A stretch of DNA of 64,000 nt from Phycisphaeraceae bacterium (GTDB taxonomy: Bacteria; Planctomycetota; Phycisphaerae; Phycisphaerales; SM1A02): assembly GCA_019636755.1 (NCBI GenBank), contig JAHBWZ010000012.1, positions 1 to 64,000 of the forward strand, in the 5' to 3' direction. Positions 5,307 to 64,000 of this stretch are shown in pieces (position 1 is the stretch's first letter; each line of letters opens with the position of its first letter). A program made the position numbers and the translations under genes. The notes beneath the pieces are model-generated. The model saw only the letters and a program-made list of their open reading frames with translations, ran no database searches and was not told the DNA's origin.

Positions 5307-8300
5307 ATGGAGACTGGTAGGATGCACTCGGAAGACAATCGCTCGCAGATCCCGATGCCTGCGCACGGCTCATCCAACCTGACTCCTGCCGCGCACGACC
5401 ACGCGGCGACGTGTGCGGCATTCGAGCAGCCGGGTTGCCGGCGGGCCACACCGGCGCGTCCCCGTCCCGACAGCGCCCGCACTCGCGCGATCGGAACGTG
5501 CTTCCTGGTCGCCGCGGTCGTGTGGGTTTCCGCGGCGGCCCGCAGTGCCACGTCGGCGTTCCGGCCTGTCGGTCCGGTGGCTGGTGCTCTCGTGCCGGCG
5601 CTCGATCCTCCTGAATCGCCATGCGATCCCGAGGCATTCGAGCCGGACACCCTGTGCGGATGGTTGTGCAGGTGCGCCGGTCTCAGCGAGCCGTCGCTGT
5701 GCATGAGTACGACGGACTGCGAGGGTATCTACCCGGCGGTCCCGATGGACTTCTCGATCAACTGCGGCGAGAAACTGCAGTATGACATCCGTCTCTGTGT
5801 CCCGCCTTGCGCGGATGTGTGCGACACGTTCGGCTTCTCGCAGTGGTCCGTCGTCGTCCGTGCGTACCTGGCGGAGTGCGAGGAACTGCCTGACGAGTGT
5901 GTCCTCGCACTCCCGCCCTGGCTGCATGAGAACTGGCAGGACCGGTGCTGCCGGGAGGCATTCGAGGAGTGGTTTGGCAAGAGTGACGACAGCTGGCTTC
6001 CGAGTTGCGGGGCTCTGGGATTCCCGCCGGAGCCGGGGGAGCCGCTCGAGCCGGACGACGCGTGTGACTGCCATCCCACGCTGTCGATCGGGGACATGCA
6101 TGATGCCATCAGCGCGAAGCTCGATGCGTTCCTGTCGCTGCTGTCCGAGGATCCCGACGCGCGGCCATGCTGCGCCACGCTCGAGCACCTGATTCCGGAG
6201 TTCGAGGAGGCGCTGCGATGCCGCTACCTGAGCCGGTGGGTCGCCTGTTACCTCGCCCGCTGCCCACCATTCGGTGACGGGGACACGATGGAGGAAGTGC
6301 TCTGTCCGGACATCATTGCGCGGCTGGCCGAGGCGATGGGCGGTGCTGTCGACTGGGCTTGCATCGTCCCCGGGGCGCTGCCGTGCGATGACTGCGAGGA
6401 TCCGAATCCGGAGACCGACGAGCCGTCCAGTCCGATCAACTGCCCGTTCACCCCAGACCCTGTCGACCTCCAGTCCGGCGCGAAGGCGGAGTTCGAGCCG
6501 GACATTGCTGTGCAGGTACCTGGTGCAGACTTCGAAGCACTTCGGTACCTGACCAGCAATCCTCGCTTCGACCGGGGCCGCGTGCTGGGGGAGCGCCAGA
6601 CGCTCAGTGTGTTCGACTACGTGCACTCGGGCTTCTCACTCGCTGACCCCCCAATCGATGGCGCGCACCACTCACAGTCGTGGCTCTTCGTCGACCTCTA
6701 CTCGCACACCGGCCGGACGCGTTTCATCAGCCCCACCGTCCACCGCCAGTATGCCAGTTTCCCGACGGAGTACACGTATTACCTGGATGCGTATCGGGCA
6801 GGCATGCCGGGCGGGCAGTATGTCCTTGCGGACGCCCTGACAGTGGCTGGAGTGCATCACGCGGTCTGGAAGGTGGTCATTCCCTCCGTCGGCGCGCGGT
6901 ACTTCTATCGGGCGTGGCCGGGGGGTGCTGACTCGGGCCTCCCGGATCCGGCGGCCCGGTCGAAGCCGCTGCGACGGACGCAGGCCGAACTGACGGGCCT
7001 GCTGCTGGCGGAAGACTTCATCTATGCGGCGAACCAGCGGCTGTACACCTACCACCTGATCCCGAAGACCGACGGTCGCGTGGCACGGCTCGCATTCGTC
7101 GACATCAACCGTTCCGGTACGGATGTCGCGGCCCGGATCCACTTCGACTGGGACACCGCCCGCGGCTGGCTGCGGCGCGTGCGGGTCGAGCGGCCGGGCG
7201 CTGGTGGCATGCGGCTTACGCAGCAGGTCGAGTACCGCTACGTGACGGACCAGTCGCCAGGCCCGTTCCACGACGATGTGGGCACCTCCGGCGATCTTGC
7301 GCTTGTCATCCAGCGTGAGCGCATCGACTGCGACCGCGTCTCGGGATGCGGGTCCGACGCGTGGTACACCCGCTACTGGCACTACAGATTCCACGGGGAG
7401 AACAGCGAGGACGGCAATCAGCACCAGCTTCGCATGATCATTGCGCCGGAGCAGATCGAGTACGTGGCGCGATTCCTGGACCTGGACCAGGAACACGTTG
7501 TCGAAGTGCTGTGCGACTCAGCAGACGGCGCGCGCCCCTGGGAACTCCTCGGGCTCGACCTCAGGGTCTCCGACCTTGCACGGAAGATCATCAGCCGATA
7601 CGAGACCGATACAGAGTCGGAGCAGCGTGTGCTCGAGCAGTTCGTCCGCGACGGATGTGACTGTTCGGGCCCGTCGGCGGGCGGCCGGCGGCTCACGTAC
7701 AGCTACTGGGAGGGAAGTGCGTCGATCACGGGCCTGGCCGATGACCCCGAGACACTGGCAGGTGTCGTGACGACGATGATCGTCGACGAGGTCGAGGAAT
7801 TCGTCGACAGCGAGCCGGTCTACACGCCCCGATACCACCGGTTTCACCACGTCGCGAAGCGACCGTTCGAGCCGCACGACCTTGAGGGTGATCTCCCGGC
7901 GGGGTTTGCGCAGCCGGTGACCTGGATCGCGCTCGAGGCCGTTGTCGATCTGTCGGGTCCGGAGACCGGCTGTCGGCGGGCGTGGGCGCAGTCGACTCGG
8001 ACGGACGGGCGCGGCGAGGTGATCGAGGAGTACGCGCCCTCCGCGACCGACTGCTATGAGCCGGGATCGGACTCGACTCCTGCAGCGTGGACCGCGTCGC
8101 CGATGGGGCTCGCTCGTGCGTATGCGTACGACGGCTTCGGCAATCGCATCGGCAGCAGCGTGTGGAGCGGTGAGGCGTTCGTCGCCGTCGAGTGCATCGA
8201 GTACGGCGCCCCCGGGGAGTCGTCGGCGTGGCCGGGGCCGCCGGACCGCCACCTGCCCGTGCGCCGGTCGCGCTTCCCATCCGGCGGGCTTCTGGTGGGT

Positions 8301-14455: not shown

Positions 14456-15281
14456 GTCAGTCTGGGGTGGGCTCCTCAGTCTGGGGCTCGGCTACGGCTA
14501 CAACCCGGATGCGACCGTTGGTGACATTCTGCGGGGTACCGGTTCAGCAACTGTGACCGGCGCGAAAGCGGTCGTCAACGGCGTTTCACAGGCAGGGGTG
14601 AATCTTGTGACGCTGGGACTCGGTCCGGACAATGTTGAAGTCTGGCGAGTGAACGATTGCGACCGGGACAATGACTACGACCTGGCGCGTGGTTTTGCGA
14701 TGGTGGGTGGTGAGATCCTCACCGGTGTACTCACGGGCGGAGCGTCGTACGCGTCGAAGGTCGGCACCGCTGTGCGGACGATTGACCAGGCAGGCAATGT
14801 GGTGATGGCCGCTCGTGGTGCGGCCGACATGCTCGATGAAGGTATCACGGCTGAAAACAGCCTGAGGCTGGCAGGAGGCGCATTCGGATTCGGTGCAAAC
14901 AGCGTGGCGCGCCGTGCGGCGATGGGACGGAGTGCGGATGATGCGCTACGGCAAGCGGATACTGAGGTTGTTCAGCGGGCTATGTCGCGGGCAGAGCTAG
15001 CTGCCACACGGGAGACAGGCCTCCTGCGCGGTGGAAGGGATGGTACCCACTACGTAAGCGATGCGGTGAACTCCGGTGCGACCCGCGCTCAGCAGCGCCT
15101 CGCCTTGCCGGAACGACCGGAGGTCAGAGTCACACTCGAGGTACCGGCCGGTCGTTTCTCATCACCAACGAGGGTGGGGCCGTTGGAGTTGCCCGGTGGT
15201 GGGGTACTCCAGGGCGGAGGCATGGAGCGTTCTGCGACGGGGAACATTCCCGTCAGGATCCTGGGCGTGAGGAGCATGTGA
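14058..15281 (+). CDS. Secreted mini-RHS/dockerin cassette B with ART-like toxin tip
   Basis: A 407-residue protein. Residues 1-31 are a signal peptide (RLMVFLLLLALIASG ... SAHG). One dockerin half-repeat (TGTVDFSDQLILSGSYASAL) leads into an RHS core (FTGHVFDAETGLLLARLRVY, VVLGRWLSRDPAGFVDGM, NPLVWWDPLG). A Gly/Ala-rich pretoxin follows (~residues 135-310). The last ~90 residues (TGLLRGGRDGTHYVSDAV, AQQRLALPERPEVRVTLEVP, GGGMERSATG) resemble the ADP-ribosyltransferase-type RHS tips described as TreTu-like; that call is from memory of the R-G-G-x2-G-T-H-Y motif and needs a profile search. There is no YD-repeat shell, so this is an orphan tip with its own export signal. Its TGA overlaps the ATG of the immunity gene. 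Confidence 0.75.
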   Translation: MPLPRAIRLMVFLLLLALIASGMLTRSAHGSQVRGPSEHVHATGTVDFSDQLILSGSYASALPRGLGLSTDGNVIGFTGHVFDAETGLLLARLRVYDAVVLGRWLSRDPAGFVDGMYVYVRGNPLVWWDPLGMSVWGGLLSLGLGYGYNPDATVGDILRGTGSATVTGAKAVVNGVSQAGVNLVTLGLGPDNVEVWRVNDCDRDNDYDLARGFAMVGGEILTGVLTGGASYASKVGTAVRTIDQAGNVVMAARGAADMLDEGITAENSLRLAGGAFGFGANSVARRAAMGRSADDALRQADTEVVQRAMSRAELAATRETGLLRGGRDGTHYVSDAVNSGATRAQQRLALPERPEVRVTLEVPAGRFSSPTRVGPLELPGGGVLQGGGMERSATGNIPVRILGVRSM

Positions 15282-58473: not shown

Positions 58474-58707
58474 ATGGGCCAGAGAGGACTCGAACAGGTG
58501 CAGGATTCCCCGGGGAATACAGGCGTTCGCGGTGAAGGCGGCGCAGAAAGCGGCGCACTTTCCTGCCGTCCGGCTCCCGCGGACCCTGACCTGGCCGCGC
58601 TGGTCGATGCCTGGCCGGACCTCTCCCCGGCGATCCGGGCCGGGATCGTGGCGATGGTCCGGGAATCGTCGAAGGGAGCGCATGGAGGCACCGATGCAAC
58701 GGCTTGA
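58474..58707 (+). CDS. Small protein starting across the attachment site
   Basis: 77 codons from an ATG at 58474 whose first eight codons are the tRNA-derived core (MGQRGLEQVQ). The end is a compact helical unit: DPDLAALVDAWPDLSPAIRA, then GIVAMVRESS. Small W-P-x-L-x-x-(A/P)-I-R-A-G-I proteins of this kind recur in planctomycete integrated elements, as far as I recall. The start may instead lie further in. Function unknown. Confidence 0.5.
   Translation: MGQRGLEQVQDSPGNTGVRGEGGAESGALSCRPAPADPDLAALVDAWPDLSPAIRAGIVAMVRESSKGAHGGTDATA
58475..58495 (-). other. Attachment site: 21-bp tRNA 3'-end remnant
   Basis: On the minus strand the sequence reads GTTCGAGTCCTCTCTGGCCC then A: a T-loop, the 3' half of the T-stem and the 3' acceptor strand of a tRNA. 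The 5' T-stem strand (it would be AGAGG) and the rest of the tRNA are absent. This is what integration at a tRNA 3' end leaves at the far end of an element; an integrase gene at the window end fits. The tRNA identity cannot be read from this piece. Confidence 0.7.
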
Positions 58708-58948
58708 ACTCACCGACGGCTTGACCCTCGCTGACCTGCTGGCCCGGGTGGCGGCCGGCGCGCGGCTGACCCTCTGCCGCGACACGGAGCCGGTGGCGGT
58801 GATCGTCCGTCCGGACGACCTGGGCGCGGCATGGGGGGAACAGGAATGGGCTCGGTCCCTGGCGCTGATCGACGACCTCCTGCGGGAAACGCCGGCACTG
58901 GACCCGTCGGTATGCATGGCCTGCGGCGGTCAGAAGAAGGCCCCCTGA
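58682..58948 (+). CDS. Phd/YefM-like antitoxin-type protein
   Basis: 88 residues from the ATG at 58682 with GAAGGGAG upstream. LTDGLTLADLLARVAAGARL then TLCRDTEPVAVIVRPDDLGA matches the N-terminal half of Phd/YefM proteins (L-x2-V-x2-G, T-x4-E-P-V-A-V-I-V-x-P-D-D). A helical stretch and a C-x2-C end (VCMACGGQ) follow. No toxin gene of the Doc or PIN type follows directly, so it may be a lone DNA-binding regulator. It overlaps the previous ORF by 26 bases in another frame. Confidence 0.55.
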   Translation: MEAPMQRLELTDGLTLADLLARVAAGARLTLCRDTEPVAVIVRPDDLGAAWGEQEWARSLALIDDLLRETPALDPSVCMACGGQKKAP

Positions 58949-58965
58949 CCCCCTGGGGGGGTTTC

Positions 58966-59313
58966 GTGAATCGACGGCCGGGAACGGACTGGCGGGTGAG
59001 ACTCCCCGGGCGTCCGCGTGAGCGGAACCACGTCGAAGAGTACCCGCTGCGCCTGGACGCGGTGCAGGTGCGCCGGGCCGCGATCGAGCGCGGCATCGAC
59101 CCGCGGGAACAGCCGTCGCTGATCGTGCGGTTACAGGGGATCCGCGGCGAACTGGTGGACGTGGTGCCCGTCGAGCACGTCACCGATCCGATCTACGGCG
59201 TGCGTCTCTGGCTCCTGTGCCCGCGGTGCGGTGCGCGGCGCCGTCACCTGTACCCGACGCGCTCGGGCGTCCGCTGCCGGGGGTGCGGACGGATCCGGTA
59301 CGGCGGTCGTTGA
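58966..59313 (+). CDS. Small zinc-ribbon protein
   Basis: 115 residues from a GTG at 58966 that follows the previous stop by 17 bases. The C-terminus carries LLCPRCGARRRHLYPTRSGV then RCRGCGRIRY, a C-x2-C ... C-x2-C ribbon. The N-terminal part is basic (VRLPGRPRERNHVEEYPLRL, RRAAIERGIDPREQPSLIVR). Proteins with this ribbon in mobile elements are usually nucleic-acid binding; the exact role is unknown. Confidence 0.6.
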   Translation: MNRRPGTDWRVRLPGRPRERNHVEEYPLRLDAVQVRRAAIERGIDPREQPSLIVRLQGIRGELVDVVPVEHVTDPIYGVRLWLLCPRCGARRRHLYPTRSGVRCRGCGRIRYGGR

Positions 59314-59467
59314 CGGAGTGATTGAACTGGCGGCCCCTTGGGCGGTCGCGGTATCGTCGCGGTATAGGGCATCGGGACTGGCCCCCCGATGAACGGACCG
59401 GGCGCGACAGTCGGCACTCACCTTCCCCGGCTGTCGCCCCTGTCCGGCCCGGACTGGAGGGTGACTG

Positions 59468-60283
59468 GTGGCAAAGAAGCGAGCGACTGCGCATTCATGC
59501 GGCTCGGACTCCGACTCCATGCCCGAATCGGGTATGTACCGAGCGCTCACGCCGGACGAGCGATCGAGGCTGGAGCAGCAGCTGGCGGTGGCGGTTGAAC
59601 TCGCCAGCGGTGCGGCGAGGGACGCGGCAATCAGGAAGCGCATTGTCTCACTGCTGGTCTGGGCGCGGTATGCCCGGGTGGCGGGTGAACATGCGTACAC
59701 CCTCGCGCATCCGCAGGCCGCAAAGCCGTGCCGGAACGTGGACGTTGGTGGTCGCGCTTGGAAGATTGTCAGCGGGAACCTTGTCGATCTGGCCCCGTCG
59801 TTCACTGACTGGGACACGTTGGCGATGTATGCAGGCATTCCGGGGGCCACAATGGCGGGAAGGCGGCCGGACCTGGCTGCGGTCAAGGCGTCGATCGCTT
59901 CGGCGCCGCGGGCTGATGTTGCCTACACCGAGGCCGTGTCAAGCATTCGCGCCGATCCTGAGGCGGCGGAGGTAGCCGGTGACGTGCTGGAGGCGATGGC
60001 GGAGGCTGAGGAGAAGCCGATTCACGCCGAGGGATCTGAGAAGCGTGAGATGACGATCGTGCTTTGGGAAGGAGCGGCAGACACGACTAGAAACCGTCGC
60101 ATTGCGCTGGTGCGATCCGCTTACCTTGAGGCCGGGGGAAACGTGCGGGCTGCGTTGAAGGCACTGAGTGAGAATGGCCACGAAGTCGGTAAGTCCACTT
60201 TCTATGAGTACCTCAGGGTGCTTGCCAGAGAAGATAGGGGTTGGCGCCATGGAGTGGCGAGCGGTCGCCCGGATTCCGGATGA
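59468..60283 (+). CDS. Hypothetical protein of the integrated element
   Basis: 271 residues from a GTG with GGAGGG upstream. Helical in most parts (ERSRLEQQLAVAVELASGAA, RKRIVSLLVWARYARVAGEH), with a C-terminal segment that looks like a helix-turn-helix (NVRAALKALSENGHEVGKST, FYEYLRVLAREDRGW), as in proteins where each next step depends on DNA binding. I cannot name the family. The base composition is slightly less GC-rich than the chromosomal genes. Its last codons overlap a perfect 13-bp-arm palindrome. Confidence 0.6.
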   Translation: MAKKRATAHSCGSDSDSMPESGMYRALTPDERSRLEQQLAVAVELASGAARDAAIRKRIVSLLVWARYARVAGEHAYTLAHPQAAKPCRNVDVGGRAWKIVSGNLVDLAPSFTDWDTLAMYAGIPGATMAGRRPDLAAVKASIASAPRADVAYTEAVSSIRADPEAAEVAGDVLEAMAEAEEKPIHAEGSEKREMTIVLWEGAADTTRNRRIALVRSAYLEAGGNVRAALKALSENGHEVGKSTFYEYLRVLAREDRGWRHGVASGRPDSG

Positions 60284-60376
60284 TCCGGAATCCGGAAATC
60301 GCTGGTACCGCCAGAACACACGGCGTCACGAGGGGATAAGTGTGACAGTCCGGTTTCCGGATGATCCGGAATCCGG
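60269..60376. repeat. Two copies of a 27-bp palindrome
   Basis: CCGGATTCCGGATGATCCGG continues to a perfect odd palindrome with 13-bp arms at 60269-60295. A near copy with one arm change lies at 60350-60376. They flank an ~55-bp spacer just before the excisionase-like genes, as operators or recombination-directionality sites would. The first could also be a terminator hairpin. Confidence 0.65.
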
Positions 60377-60433
60377 AACGCGCGCCAGTCTTACGCGGGC
60401 TGCAATAGGGCGGCCCCCGCGTGGGACTGACGT

Positions 60434-60637
60434 ATGGAACGCAACAAGGTCGAATCGCCCCCGGTGGCCCTGACGATCGCGGACGCGGCACGGAGGCTGG
60501 CTGTCTCTTCGACGACGATTCGTCGCCTCTTGGCACGGGGCGCACTGTCGCGCGTGGCTGTCGGGCGATCGGTGCGGGTGCTGGCCCGGTCTGTGGAGGA
60601 ACTCGCCGAGCGCGGGGGGCTGTCACATGCCAAGTGA
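60434..60637 (+). CDS. Excisionase-like HTH protein (1)
   Basis: 67 residues. LTIADAARRLAVSSTTIRRL followed by LARGALSRVAVGRSVRVLAR is the MerR/AlpA-type winged helix of excisionases (helix-turn-helix, then a wing with a basic tip). Such proteins bend the attachment site and decide whether the integrase excises the element. It overlaps the next HTH gene by 11 bases. The palindromes at 60269 and 60350 are candidate binding sites. Confidence 0.8.
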   Translation: MERNKVESPPVALTIADAARRLAVSSTTIRRLLARGALSRVAVGRSVRVLARSVEELAERGGLSHAK

Positions 60638-60839
60638 CACGACTTCTCCCATACCGTCCCCGCTGTCGCTGCGGCCGAAGGATGCCGCGAAGGCCCTGGG
60701 CATCGGCCGGCGGAAACTCTGGGAACTCACGAAGGCCGGCGACATCCCGCATGTCAAAGTCGGGACGGCGACGCTGTACCCGACAGAGGCGCTCCGGGCC
60801 TGGCTCATCGAGCACGCGCGGAAGGGGGTGCGACGATGA
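60627..60839 (+). CDS. Excisionase-like HTH protein (2)
   Basis: 70 residues. LSLRPKDAAKALGIGRRKLW then ELTKAGDIPHVKVGTATLYP is an HTH_17 domain with the G-D-I-P-x-x-K-V-G wing. The end LRAWLIEHARKGVRR is basic. It overlaps the upstream HTH gene and the downstream winged-helix gene (ATGA), so these three are translated as a unit. Two different excisionase-like proteins in a row suggest one may be a repressor. Confidence 0.82.
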   Translation: MPSDTTSPIPSPLSLRPKDAAKALGIGRRKLWELTKAGDIPHVKVGTATLYPTEALRAWLIEHARKGVRR

Positions 60840-61243
60840 AACGTCCCCCCGAGAACGACGCGGCCCCGCGGGACGGCGGGGCAGGCGTCAATGAAGCGAG
60901 CGATTCCCCTGATTCTACCTCGCCTGCCGGACTGCGGCTGTGCCCACCTGCTCATCGGCACGCGCCGCGCGGGACATCGGACCTCGCGGCGAACCGGATC
61001 GCCGGATACGCGGTGACGCAACGGGCGTCCGTCCTGGCGGTGATCGTGAAGGCCGGCGCCTTCGGAGCGACCGATGCGGAGATTGAGGCGGCGACCGGCA
61101 TGCGCGCTCAATCCGTTTCTCCGCGTCGCGGCGAACTCTGCGCACTCGGACTCATCATCGACAGCGGACGCCGGCGGCTCACGCCGCGCGGTCGCCATGC
61201 GGCGGTCTGGATGGCCGCGCGGGGCACCGGGGGTGCGCCATGA
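60836..61243 (+). CDS. Winged-helix protein
   Basis: 135 residues. The first ~55 are polar and disordered. TQRASVLAVIVKAGAFGATD then AEIEAATGMRAQSVSPRRGE, LCALGLIIDSGRRRLTPRGR make a winged helix-turn-helix like those that sense or process phage replication (MarR/GntR-size DNA-binding part only). ATGA overlaps join it to both neighbours. Likely a DNA-binding helper or regulator of the primase gene. Confidence 0.65.
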   Translation: MKRPPENDAAPRDGGAGVNEASDSPDSTSPAGLRLCPPAHRHAPRGTSDLAANRIAGYAVTQRASVLAVIVKAGAFGATDAEIEAATGMRAQSVSPRRGELCALGLIIDSGRRRLTPRGRHAAVWMAARGTGGAP

Positions 61244-63294
61244 GCGGCCCCGTCGATCGCATCCTTGAGGCTCTGCGCTCGAACGGGTCCGAACCACGGC
61301 CTGCGGGATCCGGATGGATGGCCCGCTGCCCGGCGCACGACGATCGCAAGCCGTCGCTGTCGATCAATGCCGGCGACGGCGGCCGGGCGCTTGTGACCTG
61401 TCATGCCGGCTGCGCGGTCGATGCGGTATGCAGCGCGATCGGTCTGCGCGTCCCCGACCTCTTCACGCCGGACGCGGACGGCCGGAACGGCTCCGCGCCC
61501 AAGACCTCCGGGCGGCGCTCGAGCGTCGCCGGCACCAAGACGTTCAGCACGGCGAAAGAAGCGGTCCAAGCACTCGAGCGCCGGCACGGGACGCGCTCGG
61601 GGCAGTGGAAGTACCTGGACGCATCGGGTGCGCCCGTCGGCCTGGTGATCCGCTGGGAGTCGTCCACGGGCAAGGACTTCCGCCCGGTGAGCCGGACATC
61701 GGACGGGTGGCAGAACTGCGCGATGCCGACACCGCGGCCGTTGTACGGACTGCCCGACCTCCTGGCGGCGCCGGTGAATGCTCGGGTGTACGTCACCGAA
61801 GGCGAGAAGGCGGCGGATGCAGCGGGCTCGGTCGGACTGGTGGCGACGACGAGCGCGGGCGGCGCGAAGGCTGCGGACAAGTCGGACTGGACGCCGCTGG
61901 CGGGCCGGGACGTCGTGATCCTGCCGGACCACGATGAACCCGGTGAGCGGTACGCGGAGGACGTCATGCGCCTTGCGACTGCCGCGGGTGCGAAGTCGGT
62001 GCGGGTGGTGCGACTGGTGGACCTGTGGCCGGAGATGCCGGCGAAGGGCGACATGGCGGACTACGTTCAGCACCGCGGAGGCGACGCGGAGGCGATCCGT
62101 GCGGATATCGAATCGCTGGTGAACAGGTCGGCAATCTACGCCGGGCCGATTGACGGCACGCCGGTCCTGCGCCGCATCGCGGACGTCAAGCCGGAGCCGG
62201 TGTCATGGCTGTGGCCCGGCCGGTTCGCGCTCGGCAAACTCACCCTGATTGCCGGCGATCCGGGGCTTGGCAAGTCGTTCCTGACGCTGGACATGGCGGC
62301 GCGGGTGTCCACGGGCGCGGGCTGGCCCGACCGGCGCAACGAGCGGACACCGCCGGCCGGCGTTCTCATCCTGAGCGCCGAAGATGCCATCGCGGACACG
62401 ATTCGTCCGCGACTGGACGCGGCCGGGGCCGACGTCGAGCGGATCATGGCGCTCGAGGCAATCCGGACCGTGACGGACAACGGCCGCGAGTCGGTCCGCG
62501 GCTTCGATCTGTCGCAGGACATGGCCGCTCTGGAGCGTGCGATCCGGACCTTGCAGGACTGCCGGCTGGTGGTCATCGACCCGGTGACGGCATACCTGGG
62601 CCGCACCGACTCGCACAAGAATGCCGAGATACGCGGACTGCTCGCGCCGCTGAGCGAACTGGCGGAGCGGCACCGCGTGGCGGTGGTCGCGGTGACCCAC
62701 CTGAACAAGTCGGGCGGCGGCCCGGCGATCTACCGCGCGATGGGATCCCTTGCCTTCGCGGCCGCGGCCCGGGCGGCATGGGCGGTGAGCAAGGACAAGG
62801 CCGATCCGCAGCGGCGACTCCTGCTGCCGATCAAGAACAACATTGCCCCGGATGCCGGCGGACTGTCATATCGGATCCAGCCGGCAGGCGTGGGCGGGTG
62901 CCCTTCGGTCGCATGGGATCCGGACCCCGTGAACGTGAGCGCCGACGATGCCCTGTCCGGGGATCGGGACCACGACGACGGGCGCACCGAGCGGGACGAC
63001 GCGGCCGAGTGGTTGCGCGACTTCCTCGCCGACGGTCCACGGCAGAGCAAGGACGTCGAACAGAATGCGAGGGAAGCCGGATACTCGATCGCCACCCTGC
63101 GCCGCGCGAGGGCCGCACTTGGCGTCAAGGCGACGAAGGCAGGACTCGATGGCCCTTGGGAATGCTCGCTTCCCGCCGAAGATGCTCACCTGCCCCCGAA
63201 GGCGCTCACCCTTGGAGACGTGAGCGCCTTCGGAGTCGGTGAGCGCCTTCGGGCGCCGGACACCGGCAGCGGGGGGGGAGCCGTGGGCGGGTGA
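61240..63294 (+). CDS. Primase/helicase: CHC2-like ribbon, TOPRIM and RepA-like AAA domain
   Basis: 684 residues, the replication protein of the element. Residues ~20-70: a CHC2-type zinc ribbon (WMARCPAHDDRKPSLSINAG, ALVTCHAGCAVDAV). Residues ~180-260: a TOPRIM-like domain (VYVTEGEKAADAAGS, VVILPDHDEPGERYAEDV). Residues ~320-550: a RecA/RepA-type ATPase (LTLIAGDPGLGKSFLTLDMA Walker A, GVLILSAEDAIADTIRPRLD, LVVIDPVTAYLG Walker B, VAVVAVTHLNKSGGG). The C-terminus is a winged helix (DGPRQSKDVEQNAREAGYSI). It should prime and unwind the element's DNA. A strong hairpin lies in the last codons. Confidence 0.87.
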   Translation: MSGPVDRILEALRSNGSEPRPAGSGWMARCPAHDDRKPSLSINAGDGGRALVTCHAGCAVDAVCSAIGLRVPDLFTPDADGRNGSAPKTSGRRSSVAGTKTFSTAKEAVQALERRHGTRSGQWKYLDASGAPVGLVIRWESSTGKDFRPVSRTSDGWQNCAMPTPRPLYGLPDLLAAPVNARVYVTEGEKAADAAGSVGLVATTSAGGAKAADKSDWTPLAGRDVVILPDHDEPGERYAEDVMRLATAAGAKSVRVVRLVDLWPEMPAKGDMADYVQHRGGDAEAIRADIESLVNRSAIYAGPIDGTPVLRRIADVKPEPVSWLWPGRFALGKLTLIAGDPGLGKSFLTLDMAARVSTGAGWPDRRNERTPPAGVLILSAEDAIADTIRPRLDAAGADVERIMALEAIRTVTDNGRESVRGFDLSQDMAALERAIRTLQDCRLVVIDPVTAYLGRTDSHKNAEIRGLLAPLSELAERHRVAVVAVTHLNKSGGGPAIYRAMGSLAFAAAARAAWAVSKDKADPQRRLLLPIKNNIAPDAGGLSYRIQPAGVGGCPSVAWDPDPVNVSADDALSGDRDHDDGRTERDDAAEWLRDFLADGPRQSKDVEQNAREAGYSIATLRRARAALGVKATKAGLDGPWECSLPAEDAHLPPKALTLGDVSAFGVGERLRAPDTGSGGGAVGG
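63196..63253 (+). other. 14-bp hairpin and third copy of its arm at the end of the primase gene
   Basis: CCGAAGGCGCTCAC (63196-63209) pairs perfectly with 63220-63233 across a 10-base loop. A third copy of the right arm (GTGAGCGCCTTCGGG) follows at 63239-63253. The coding text is therefore repetitive (PPKALTLGDVSAFGVGERLR). It could be an RNA structure controlling the next gene or a protein-binding iteron-like set. Confidence 0.6.
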
Positions 63295-63297
63295 ACT

Positions 63298-63666
63298 GTG
63301 AACGACCTTGCCCGAGGGCTCATCGACCTTGGCGCCGCGGGCGTCGAACTGGCCCGGGCCGGGGATCGGATCCGGTTCCGGCCCGCACTCCCGCCGGACG
63401 CGCTCGAGTGGCTGACCCGGTACAGGGCGGCGGTGCTGGCCCTGCTGGAGTCGGGGTACGACCCGGAGGACGCGGAGGCCCGGTACGTCCTGCTCGAGCG
63501 CCTGGGGATCGCGGACGATCTGGACATGCCGACCGATCCCGGCGCCCCGGCATGGCTGGTCGCGGTCGGCGAGTCGATGCTACTTGCACAATGCGAAGCA
63601 TCCGGGGTATACTCCCCGCATGACACTGACGGAGGCCCTGCGGGTGGCGCTCGAGCGATGCGGTGA
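63298..63666 (+). CDS. TubC_N-like small protein
   Basis: 122 residues from a GTG four bases after the primase stop. LARGLIDLGAAGVELARAGD then RIRFRPALPPDALEWLTRYR, AAVLALLESGY follows the TubC N-terminal docking-domain pattern (L-x2-L-x-G-v-x-L-x-GDR-L-x-F then a-x-L-x5-L-x3-K/R-x-x-L-L). Such domains often accompany primases in phage-like elements and dock other proteins. The C-terminal half is acidic and less typical. Its last codons overlap the start of the XRE gene in another frame, and contain that gene's promoter. Confidence 0.7.
   Translation: MNDLARGLIDLGAAGVELARAGDRIRFRPALPPDALEWLTRYRAAVLALLESGYDPEDAEARYVLLERLGIADDLDMPTDPGAPAWLVAVGESMLLAQCEASGVYSPHDTDGGPAGGARAMR
63584..63613 (+). 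promoter_or_regulatory. Promoter for a leaderless XRE/integrase message
   Basis: TTGCAC (63584-63589), an 18-bp spacer, and TATACT (63608-63613). The ATG of the XRE gene comes six bases after the -10, so the transcript should begin at or next to the start codon. The whole promoter lies inside the TubC_N-like gene. Confidence 0.65.
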
Positions 63667-63829
63667 GACGCGGTACGCGGTGAGCAAGGCGACGGGCATT
63701 CCTGAGTCGGTCCTGTCCCGATTCATCCACGGGGACTACCTGCGGGGGCGGAACATGGACCGGCTGGCGGACTACCTGGGAATGGAACTCAAGGCGAAGG
63801 CGGGCAGGAAGGCCCGCAAGGAACGGTGA
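63620..63829 (+). CDS. XRE-family HTH regulator
   Basis: 69 residues, mostly one XRE/Cro-type helix-turn-helix: TLTEALRVALERCGETRYAV then SKATGIPESVLSRFIHGDYL, RGRNMDRLADYLGMEL, and a Lys/Arg-rich end. The ATG at 63620 was chosen because of the promoter six bases upstream. It lies three bases ahead of the integrase gene and probably controls it; the palindromes at 60269 and 60350 are possible targets. Confidence 0.85.
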   Translation: MTLTEALRVALERCGETRYAVSKATGIPESVLSRFIHGDYLRGRNMDRLADYLGMELKAKAGRKARKER

Positions 63830-63832
63830 CGC

Positions 63833-64000
63833 ATGGCGAGCCTGTGCAGAGACAAGAACGGCGGCAAGCGGATCCTGTTCATGGATGGCGACGGTGACCG
63901 TCGGACGCTTCGGCTCGGCACGCTGTCCGTGAAGGCGGCCGAGTCGGTCCGGCTCCGCGTGGAAGCACTGATCGCGGCCCGGTTCGCCGGGACACCGATT
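63833..64000 (+). CDS. Tyrosine-type integrase, 3' partial
   Basis: 56 codons before the window ends: MASLCRDKNGGKRILFMDGD then GDRRTLRLGTLSVKAAESVR, and RVEALIAARFAGTPI. This is the N-terminal Arm-type start common to planctomycete phage-like integrases (M-A-S-L-x-R-D-x-N-G-x-(R/K)-R-I-x-F, R-T-I-R-L-G, K-A-A-E-x-V-x-x-R-V-E). The catalytic Arg-His-Arg-Tyr domain is outside. Right after the XRE gene, on the same leaderless transcript. It should recombine at the tRNA site found at 58475. Confidence 0.75.
   Translation, partial: MASLCRDKNGGKRILFMDGDGDRRTLRLGTLSVKAAESVRLRVEALIAARFAGTPI

Follow-up and report, generated by a model that had tools for sequence, protein, structure and literature searches.

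A compact integrative element of a Phycisphaeraceae bacterium whose integrase gene crosses its own attachment core, and a shared C-terminal tail in relatives

In the Myxococcus xanthus phage Mx8, the phage attachment site (attP) lies within the coding sequence of the integrase gene int and integration gives int a new 3' end, which is reported to change the specificity of the integrase rather than inactivate it and is termed a molecular switch, with a similar principle given for Mx9 (PMC6070905). The suicidal integrases of the archaeal elements SSV1, pTN3 and pT26-2 likewise hold the attachment (att) site within the integrase gene, which is altered by integration; an N-terminal piece is reported to be cut from the catalytic piece, the fragments being inactive, and self-disrupting recombinases are described as exclusively archaeal (PMC8371274). 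In the integration-dependent immunity of the mycobacteriophage BPs, attP likewise lies in a coding frame, whose product loses a C-terminal piece on integration and behaves differently (PMC4557955). Here a 6613-base-pair (bp) integrative element is described at the end of a 64,000-nucleotide stretch of a Phycisphaeraceae bacterium (the window; positions 1–64000 of contig C4 in a 4.1-Mb genome), in which the integrase frame runs through the attachment core and for which an exchange of the integrase C-terminus on integration is proposed.

The element extends from window position 58474 to about C4:65087. Its left end is a 22-bp core, ATGGGCCAGAGAGGACTCGAAC, the second copy of which, past the end of the window, is the 3' end of an intact tRNA-Ile(GAT) (C4:65088–65161 on the minus strand, scored at 67 bits by the Rfam tRNA model). 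One end thus holds a complete tRNA and the other its 3' fragment as a direct repeat, the arrangement expected where an element has inserted into the 3' end of a tRNA gene. A search of the whole genome with the 21-bp core pattern, allowing up to two mismatches, returned two sites (window 58475 and C4:65088), both exact and in the same orientation, and the reversed pattern as a control returned none. The first-pass annotation had proposed such an integration, to be abandoned if no matching tRNA lay downstream, and was correct, the full tRNA-Ile(GAT) having been located beyond the integrase. The integrase start it gave, 63833, agrees with the present one, and its 21-bp core at 58475 is indeed a core, one base longer and starting at 58474; its suggestion that cargo may lie outside the window did not hold, as past the window end only the remainder of the integrase and the tRNA belong to the element. 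No empty site was found when the right flank was searched in 41 genomes (the element's own and 40 relatives, none of the same genus, left flank excluded), where the matches listed were the tRNA-Ile and scattered partial matches only.

The integrase open reading frame (ORF) meets no stop ahead of the core and runs to C4:65158, encoding 441 amino acids (aa), with its last 23 codons formed by the core and the antisense strand of tRNA-Ile. Its residues are MGQRGLE within the core, followed by PPTSPLSGARSSQLSY from the antisense tRNA. At the left copy, which itself starts with an in-frame ATG, the same frame reads MGQRGLE followed by 70 more residues, up to a stop ending at 58707. The core begins after integrase residue 418, and with the two copies recombining as in tyrosine-integrase elements the circle would encode 418 + 77 = 495 residues. 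On sequence grounds, then, the frame crosses the core and would acquire a new C-terminus upon integration. That each copy of the core is crossed by the integrase frame is the main point of this work and was overlooked in the earlier annotation.

The residues expected of a tyrosine integrase all lie ahead of the core. The protein matched phrog_1 (E 2e-32) and fell below the cut-off for Pfam PF00589 (1.6e-5), for which the integrases of L093 and L166 were above it (L-numbers denote loci of relatives, fetched stretches or viral contigs). In an alignment of 16 integrases, R227, K253, R323 and Y354 were invariant and W342 was present in at least 90%; these we take to be members of the catalytic R-K-H-R-H/W-Y set, with residue 354 as the catalytic tyrosine. 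At the position of the HxxR histidine, the window integrase has H and many relatives have Q.

Genes of the form deduced for the circle were found uninterrupted among viral contigs, scanned with alignments in two overlapping sets of 33 and 40 loci. A hidden Markov model (HMM) of the tail recognized integrase-core-tail genes in L093, L159, L163 (= L164), L166 (= L167), L182 and L213 (E 4e-14 to 3e-3), and two more, L170 and the genome contig L021, were identified by eye. The uninterrupted integrases of L093 and L166 have 496 and 492 residues, compared with the 495 deduced for the window element. The clearest pair is L166 and L168, with integrases 82% identical, in which the frame past the core leads into the tail in L166 and into tRNA-Ser(gct) in L168. 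Many other viral contigs broke off near the core, ended in a tRNA or transfer-messenger RNA (tmRNA; together t(m)RNA), or had some other end. A tblastn search with the integrase returned two phage records, both of a single weakly similar Planktothrix phage (25%), and no matches among plasmids.

The same arrangement recurred among relatives with an integrase of this family (family 1), present in 52 of 392 phylum genomes, its own included. Integrases were drawn from a genome-contig scan (55 loci, 53 of the 55 records planctomycete by title), 60 fetched stretches, one viral contig and the element itself, and the 119 matches were reduced to 117 by removing two that duplicated others throughout their first 250 residues. 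Of these 117 ORFs, 91 read into a tRNA or tmRNA in antisense, with 26 tRNA labels besides tmRNA; among the rest, five stop before the t(m)RNA, 16 have none within 1.5 kb, three are incomplete and two end with the contig. For 27 family-1 elements, 4.2 to 18.7 kb in length, both ends were defined by an upstream copy of 14 bp or more of the tRNA terminus. After the left core the integrase frame stayed open for at least 49 aa in 24 of these 27, whereas each of the two remaining frames did so in 4.

The tail of the window element matched nothing in Pfam, PHROGs or NCBIfam. Comparisons of tails were made across Planctomycetota-sampled genomes and viral contigs, and outside the phylum with Mx8 only. 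In a leave-one-out test the tail HMM recognized the integrase frame at E<1e-3 in 18 of 25 elements and none of the other frames below 0.1. A GGAESGA motif in the tails was rejected as a sign of protein conservation, being the same DNA repeat that encodes AQNAAQ in the integrase linker in another frame. The tail test was therefore redone from 96 nucleotides past the core start, and this part was recognized by itself in 11 of 22 elements (10 without L018; in L018 and L102 the part still contains the arm-site stretch discussed below), and no match below 0.1 was obtained in any of the other five frames. A six-frame search of the family-1 loci found again the known left ends, the integrase of L093 and a tandem copy in L116, together with frames upstream of the integrases in L042, L047, L048, L051, L058, L100 and L151 and second weak segments of the same frames; left ends were subsequently mapped for L047, L051 and L151. 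The left end of L227, outside the stretch first fetched, was located through tail homology, with a 14-bp core there.

Integrases ending in SRGESNPR target tmRNA, as called by ARAGORN in tmRNA mode. This group comprises L042–L047, L050, L052, L061, L139 and L151, with L053 and L054 ending before the tmRNA. Both ends and an in-frame tail were found for L047 and L151, with cores of 29 and 31 bp and lengths of 10.8 and 14.0 kb. The integrases of L043 (titled Dehalococcoidia) and L050 (Leptolyngbya sp.) belong to the tmRNA group and resemble those of Phycisphaerales, and these records look mislabelled or mis-binned.

The tail was also found with a second integrase family. With the tail of the window element as the query, matches were present in 17 of 41 genomes (own included). 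The integrase of L233 has 26% identity to family 1 (BLASTP, E 6e-6) and represents the second family, with relatives in 46 of 294 genomes of the phylum. Of the 21 distinct integrases obtained from L233 and 20 fetched stretches, 16 read into an antisense t(m)RNA. Where both ends are known, an in-frame tail was recognized in 7/7 elements (E 3e-10 to 1e-14) by the HMM trained on family 1 only, or 5/5 as the independent count, since the tails of L233 and L252 were first found by tail search; other frames at these left ends are open for at most 31 residues. The occurrence of the same tail in two distant integrase families indicates that the tail is modular. In L233 the exact repeat (6711–6735 and 14837–14861) lies in the anticodon arm of a tRNA-Ala, with an ARAGORN tRNA call at the left copy too, and its relative L249 has a 51-bp repeat. 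More tails, several following in-frame text resembling antisense tRNA, were seen in L228–L232 and L234–L246, where no family-1 integrase was found in the fetched stretch; these may mark the left ends of elements that use different integrases. Locus L116, which in oriented form has integrases at 2847 and 11570, seems to be a tandem of two elements at a single tRNA-Arg; one integrase frame enters the left end of the other element and breaks off, giving a hybrid C-terminus. Excision between unlike tandem neighbours sharing one tRNA would swap tails, which is offered as a suggestion.

Across both families, both ends are known for 35 elements, and in 32 of them the integrase frame continues into a tail of 49 aa or longer; most of these tails match a single profile. 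In this survey 18 training tails match by construction, and the leave-one-out test, the part from 96 nucleotides and the second family are the fair tests. All three phases of the integrase frame relative to the tRNA end occur (18, 13 and 4 of the 35, as the tRNA ends were called by ARAGORN), and 17, 11 and 4 of these, respectively, have a tail of 49 aa or more in the integrase frame. We do not see how chance or constraint on the core sequence alone would keep the tail in frame in all three phases.

Repeats resembling arm-type sites lie beside the core in part of the elements. A tandem hexamer, GGYGCA-N6-GGYGCA or a variant, was present in 34 of 100 integrase linkers compared with 1 of 582 windows of the integrase body, and at 9 of 27 left ends compared with 2 of 1353 control windows. 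The hexamers agreed in 6/6 elements with the repeat on both sides, and the offset from the left core start was 66 to 101 bases among the copies printed. In the window element two matching GGCGCA-type copies lie in the integrase linker (C4:64934–64951 and 64957–64974). From their sequence, these repeats are read as putative arm-type sites. In the AlphaFold model of the L093 integrase, residues 376–459, including the core-like stretch, are predicted to be disordered (predicted local distance difference test, pLDDT, <50), and the tail is predicted to form a two-helix hairpin (457–472 and 477–492, pLDDT about 76–92); L166 gave the same picture at lower confidence (hairpin pLDDT 56–73). A fold search with a relative's predicted integrase minus the tail returned the Tn1549, XerA and lambda integrases (best 6en2 and 1z1b, E about 1e-11 to 1e-10), and its predicted N-terminal beta-sheet domain resembles an arm-binding domain.

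The explanation favoured here is that attP of this compact element lies within the 3' part of its integrase gene, as in relatives, where the core, together with arm-type repeats in some elements, falls within the stretch joining the catalytic domain to the tail. The excised circle would encode an integrase (Int) of about 495 aa. Because the integrase frame crosses the core and site-specific recombination is conservative, integration would exchange the last 70 residues for 16 encoded by the host, the frame ending in the antisense tRNA, and re-excision would bring back the long form. Within the attP complex, the two-helix hairpin on its disordered tether may touch partner protomers, the excisionase (Xis) or a host factor. 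Full-length Int would then serve to integrate the element, and the tail-less Int produced from the integrated copy would be changed in activity or site preference, the integrase in this way reporting whether the element is integrated. Taken whole, with the altered Int as a report of state, this is considered likely. The arrangement itself, attP in int with an in-frame tail, appears close to certain; a functional effect of the exchange is rated as reasonably probable, and any particular effect as less so.

Several observations weigh against the proposed exchange. No overlap of contig ends that would mark a circular free form was found in the 18 contigs checked (L021 included), and a tandem array could also yield an uninterrupted gene. 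Near-identical integrases such as those of L029 and L030 were kept among the 117, so that close relatives were counted separately, and the five ORFs noted above end ahead of their t(m)RNA. In the first pass no left core was found for 34 of 59 tRNA-ended integrases with more than 3 kb upstream. Three of the 35 elements have no 49-aa tail (12 aa in L125, 6 in L126 and 26 in L147), the long tails of L029, L145 and L148 were unrecognized by the HMM (E 0.006–0.01), and that of L143 was also missed when left out of training. The tail end, which lies past the arm site, varies more at third codon positions (219, 183 and 344 differences at the first, second and third positions over 559 codons), but the 24 pairs compared overlap and were chosen by amino-acid identity, which favours a third-position excess.

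Arm-type repeats were found in a minority of elements under the strict pattern, and the tail could be kept for its arm-site DNA alone. This touches on the main rival to the exchange, that the tail has no regulatory role: attP would have come to lie in the 3' end of int through the packing of arm sites, core and coding sequence, and the tail would be a C-terminal domain of the usual kind, which the enzyme could lose without harm. In some elements the repeats lie inside the tail, placing part of its DNA under another constraint, and tail lengths and ends vary, with a short type without the long hairpin in L097, L098, L110, L117 and L120. The recognition by itself of the part from 96 nucleotides past the core, and a tail common to two distant integrase families and in frame in all three phases, argue against this rival, which is regarded as rather unlikely. 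The varying tail ends also bear on a role as a degradation signal lost on integration, as in phages with integration-dependent immunity, by which full-length Int would be short-lived in the circle and tail-less Int stable in the chromosome. The ends are unlike an ssrA tag, most tmRNA tags predicted at these loci end in LAA, and the conserved stretch is predicted to fold as a hairpin, so a degradation signal is judged improbable. The in-frame ATG at the start of the window core would suit a separate small gene expressed from the left end of the integrated element, its match to the integrase frame being incidental. However, a simple scan found an in-frame start with a Shine-Dalgarno-like sequence in only 6 of the 35 elements (a GTG start in the window), uninterrupted fusions exist, and the frame match in 32 of 35 would be left unexplained; a separate gene is considered very improbable.

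The features of the element are collected in Table 1, the listed genes being on the plus strand. The ATG of the 84-aa protein gene overlaps the end of the tail.

Table 1. Features of the element in the window
Feature	Window coordinates	Strand	Basis or remark
Left att core, 22-bp repeat of tRNA-Ile 3' end	58474..58495	+	Second copy C4:65087–65108
Orphan integrase tail, 77 aa + stop, conserved WPxL-type hairpin (predicted)	58474..58707	+	Core-entry frame of the integrase
Putative arm-type site GGCGCA-N6-GGCGCA (P' arm)	58540..58557	+	Repeat pattern
84-aa protein, weakly Phd/YefM-like	58694..58948	+	Pfam E 0.03, below cut-off; sequence
115-aa protein, zinc-ribbon-like CxxC..CxxC end	58966..59313	+	Pfam E 0.02, below cut-off
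271-aa protein, no named family	59468..60283	+	Pfam, PHROGs scans
HTH_17 (excisionase-type) protein 1	60434..60637	+	Family scan
HTH_17 (excisionase-type) protein 2	60627..60839	+	Family scan, PHROGs
Winged-helix-like protein, phrog_1123 (no function named)	60836..61243	+	PHROGs; winged-helix label from the first-pass annotation
CHC2-TOPRIM-AAA_25 primase-helicase, 684 aa	61240..63294	+	Pfam, PHROGs
122-aa protein, weakly TubC_N-like	63298..63666	+	Pfam E 0.02, below cut-off
XRE-type regulator (HTH_26)	63620..63829	+	E 7e-6; scan began at TTG 63584
Tyrosine integrase, 5' part	63833..64000	+	ORF extends to C4:65158, 441 aa

Of the gene labels in the first-pass annotation, the two excisionases correspond to sound HTH_17 calls (E 1e-9 and 7e-12) and the XRE regulator is supported by its HTH_26 match. 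For the CHC2-TOPRIM-AAA protein, AAA_25 (E 1e-39) and the PHROGs assignment to primase/helicase (E 1e-46) are sound, with TOPRIM (1.5e-4) and CHC2 (0.03) under the Pfam cut-offs; the Phd-like, zinc-ribbon and TubC_N-like labels correspond to weak matches only. As had been noted, the element proteins tested included no clear capsid or terminase by Pfam and PHROGs, where weak head-scaffold or small-terminase matches (PHROGs, E 0.002–0.24) fell on one helix-turn-helix protein, the 271-aa protein and the primase-helicase. The gene content is consistent with the earlier proposal of a phage satellite or plasmid-like element without virion genes, and the set of Xis-like helix-turn-helix proteins, primase-helicase, XRE regulator and tyrosine integrase fits a compact integrative element by sequence. 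PADLOC, run on six element proteins, matched the primase-helicase only, to its RTasDnaG-like model (2e-8) and weakly to mad8 (0.002); the former match falls on the TOPRIM part of the protein and most likely represents common TOPRIM similarity rather than a defence gene. A sister element of 6.7 kb lies at tRNA-Val-gac in a genome of the same family, with identities of 66% for the primase, 65% for the integrase, 62% for the Xis-like protein and 59% for the TubC-like protein.

An integration-edited protein would here be a recurring design across the sampled phylum, with many tRNA targets, tmRNA and two integrase families. The element could encode 'integrated' or 'free' in the enzyme itself, which opens the direction control of these integrases to testing. 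As a tentative extension, Planctomycetota elements may share a detachable integrase domain that acts as a recombination-coupled state sensor, setting direction or specificity, and that is passed between unrelated integrases by tandem recombination at the shared core of one tRNA. In practical terms, the tail can be used to locate the distal end of an element with a short att repeat, as for L227, and integrases read from integrated copies are chimeras ending in a tRNA antisense peptide, which matters for cloning.

To our knowledge, other cases of integration-edited proteins come from certain phages (Mx8, Mx9, BPs and relatives) or from archaeal elements with a split integrase. Searches of the open-access literature, to which most subscription papers do not belong, returned no report of the arrangement in planctomycetes or of a conserved detachable tail. 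The predicted fold of a relative, its N-terminal beta-sheet domain and the arm-site-like repeats liken these integrases to those of lambda and Tn1549, in which att lies outside the int coding frame. Unlike in the SSV type, the cut follows the catalytic tyrosine (residue 354, with the core after 418) and leaves the catalytic domain whole, which sets the element apart from that class. In BPs the gene is that of the repressor and the piece removed bears a proteolysis tag. In Mx8, attP again lies in int, and integration is reported to alter the properties of int rather than destroy it; the Mx8 Int frame also reads a GLEP-type stretch ahead of its tail. However, the end of Mx8 Int gave no match to the tail HMM, Mx8 was absent from the phage-collection matches of the window integrase at E 1e-5, and it was not assigned to the same lineage. 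An attP inside int with a changed C-terminus was thus already known from Mx8. Apparently new here are the conserved detachable tail, for which we infer a function, and its recurrence: compared with Mx8 and Mx9, one tail domain is here common to two integrase families and recurs across many genera and many tRNA targets.

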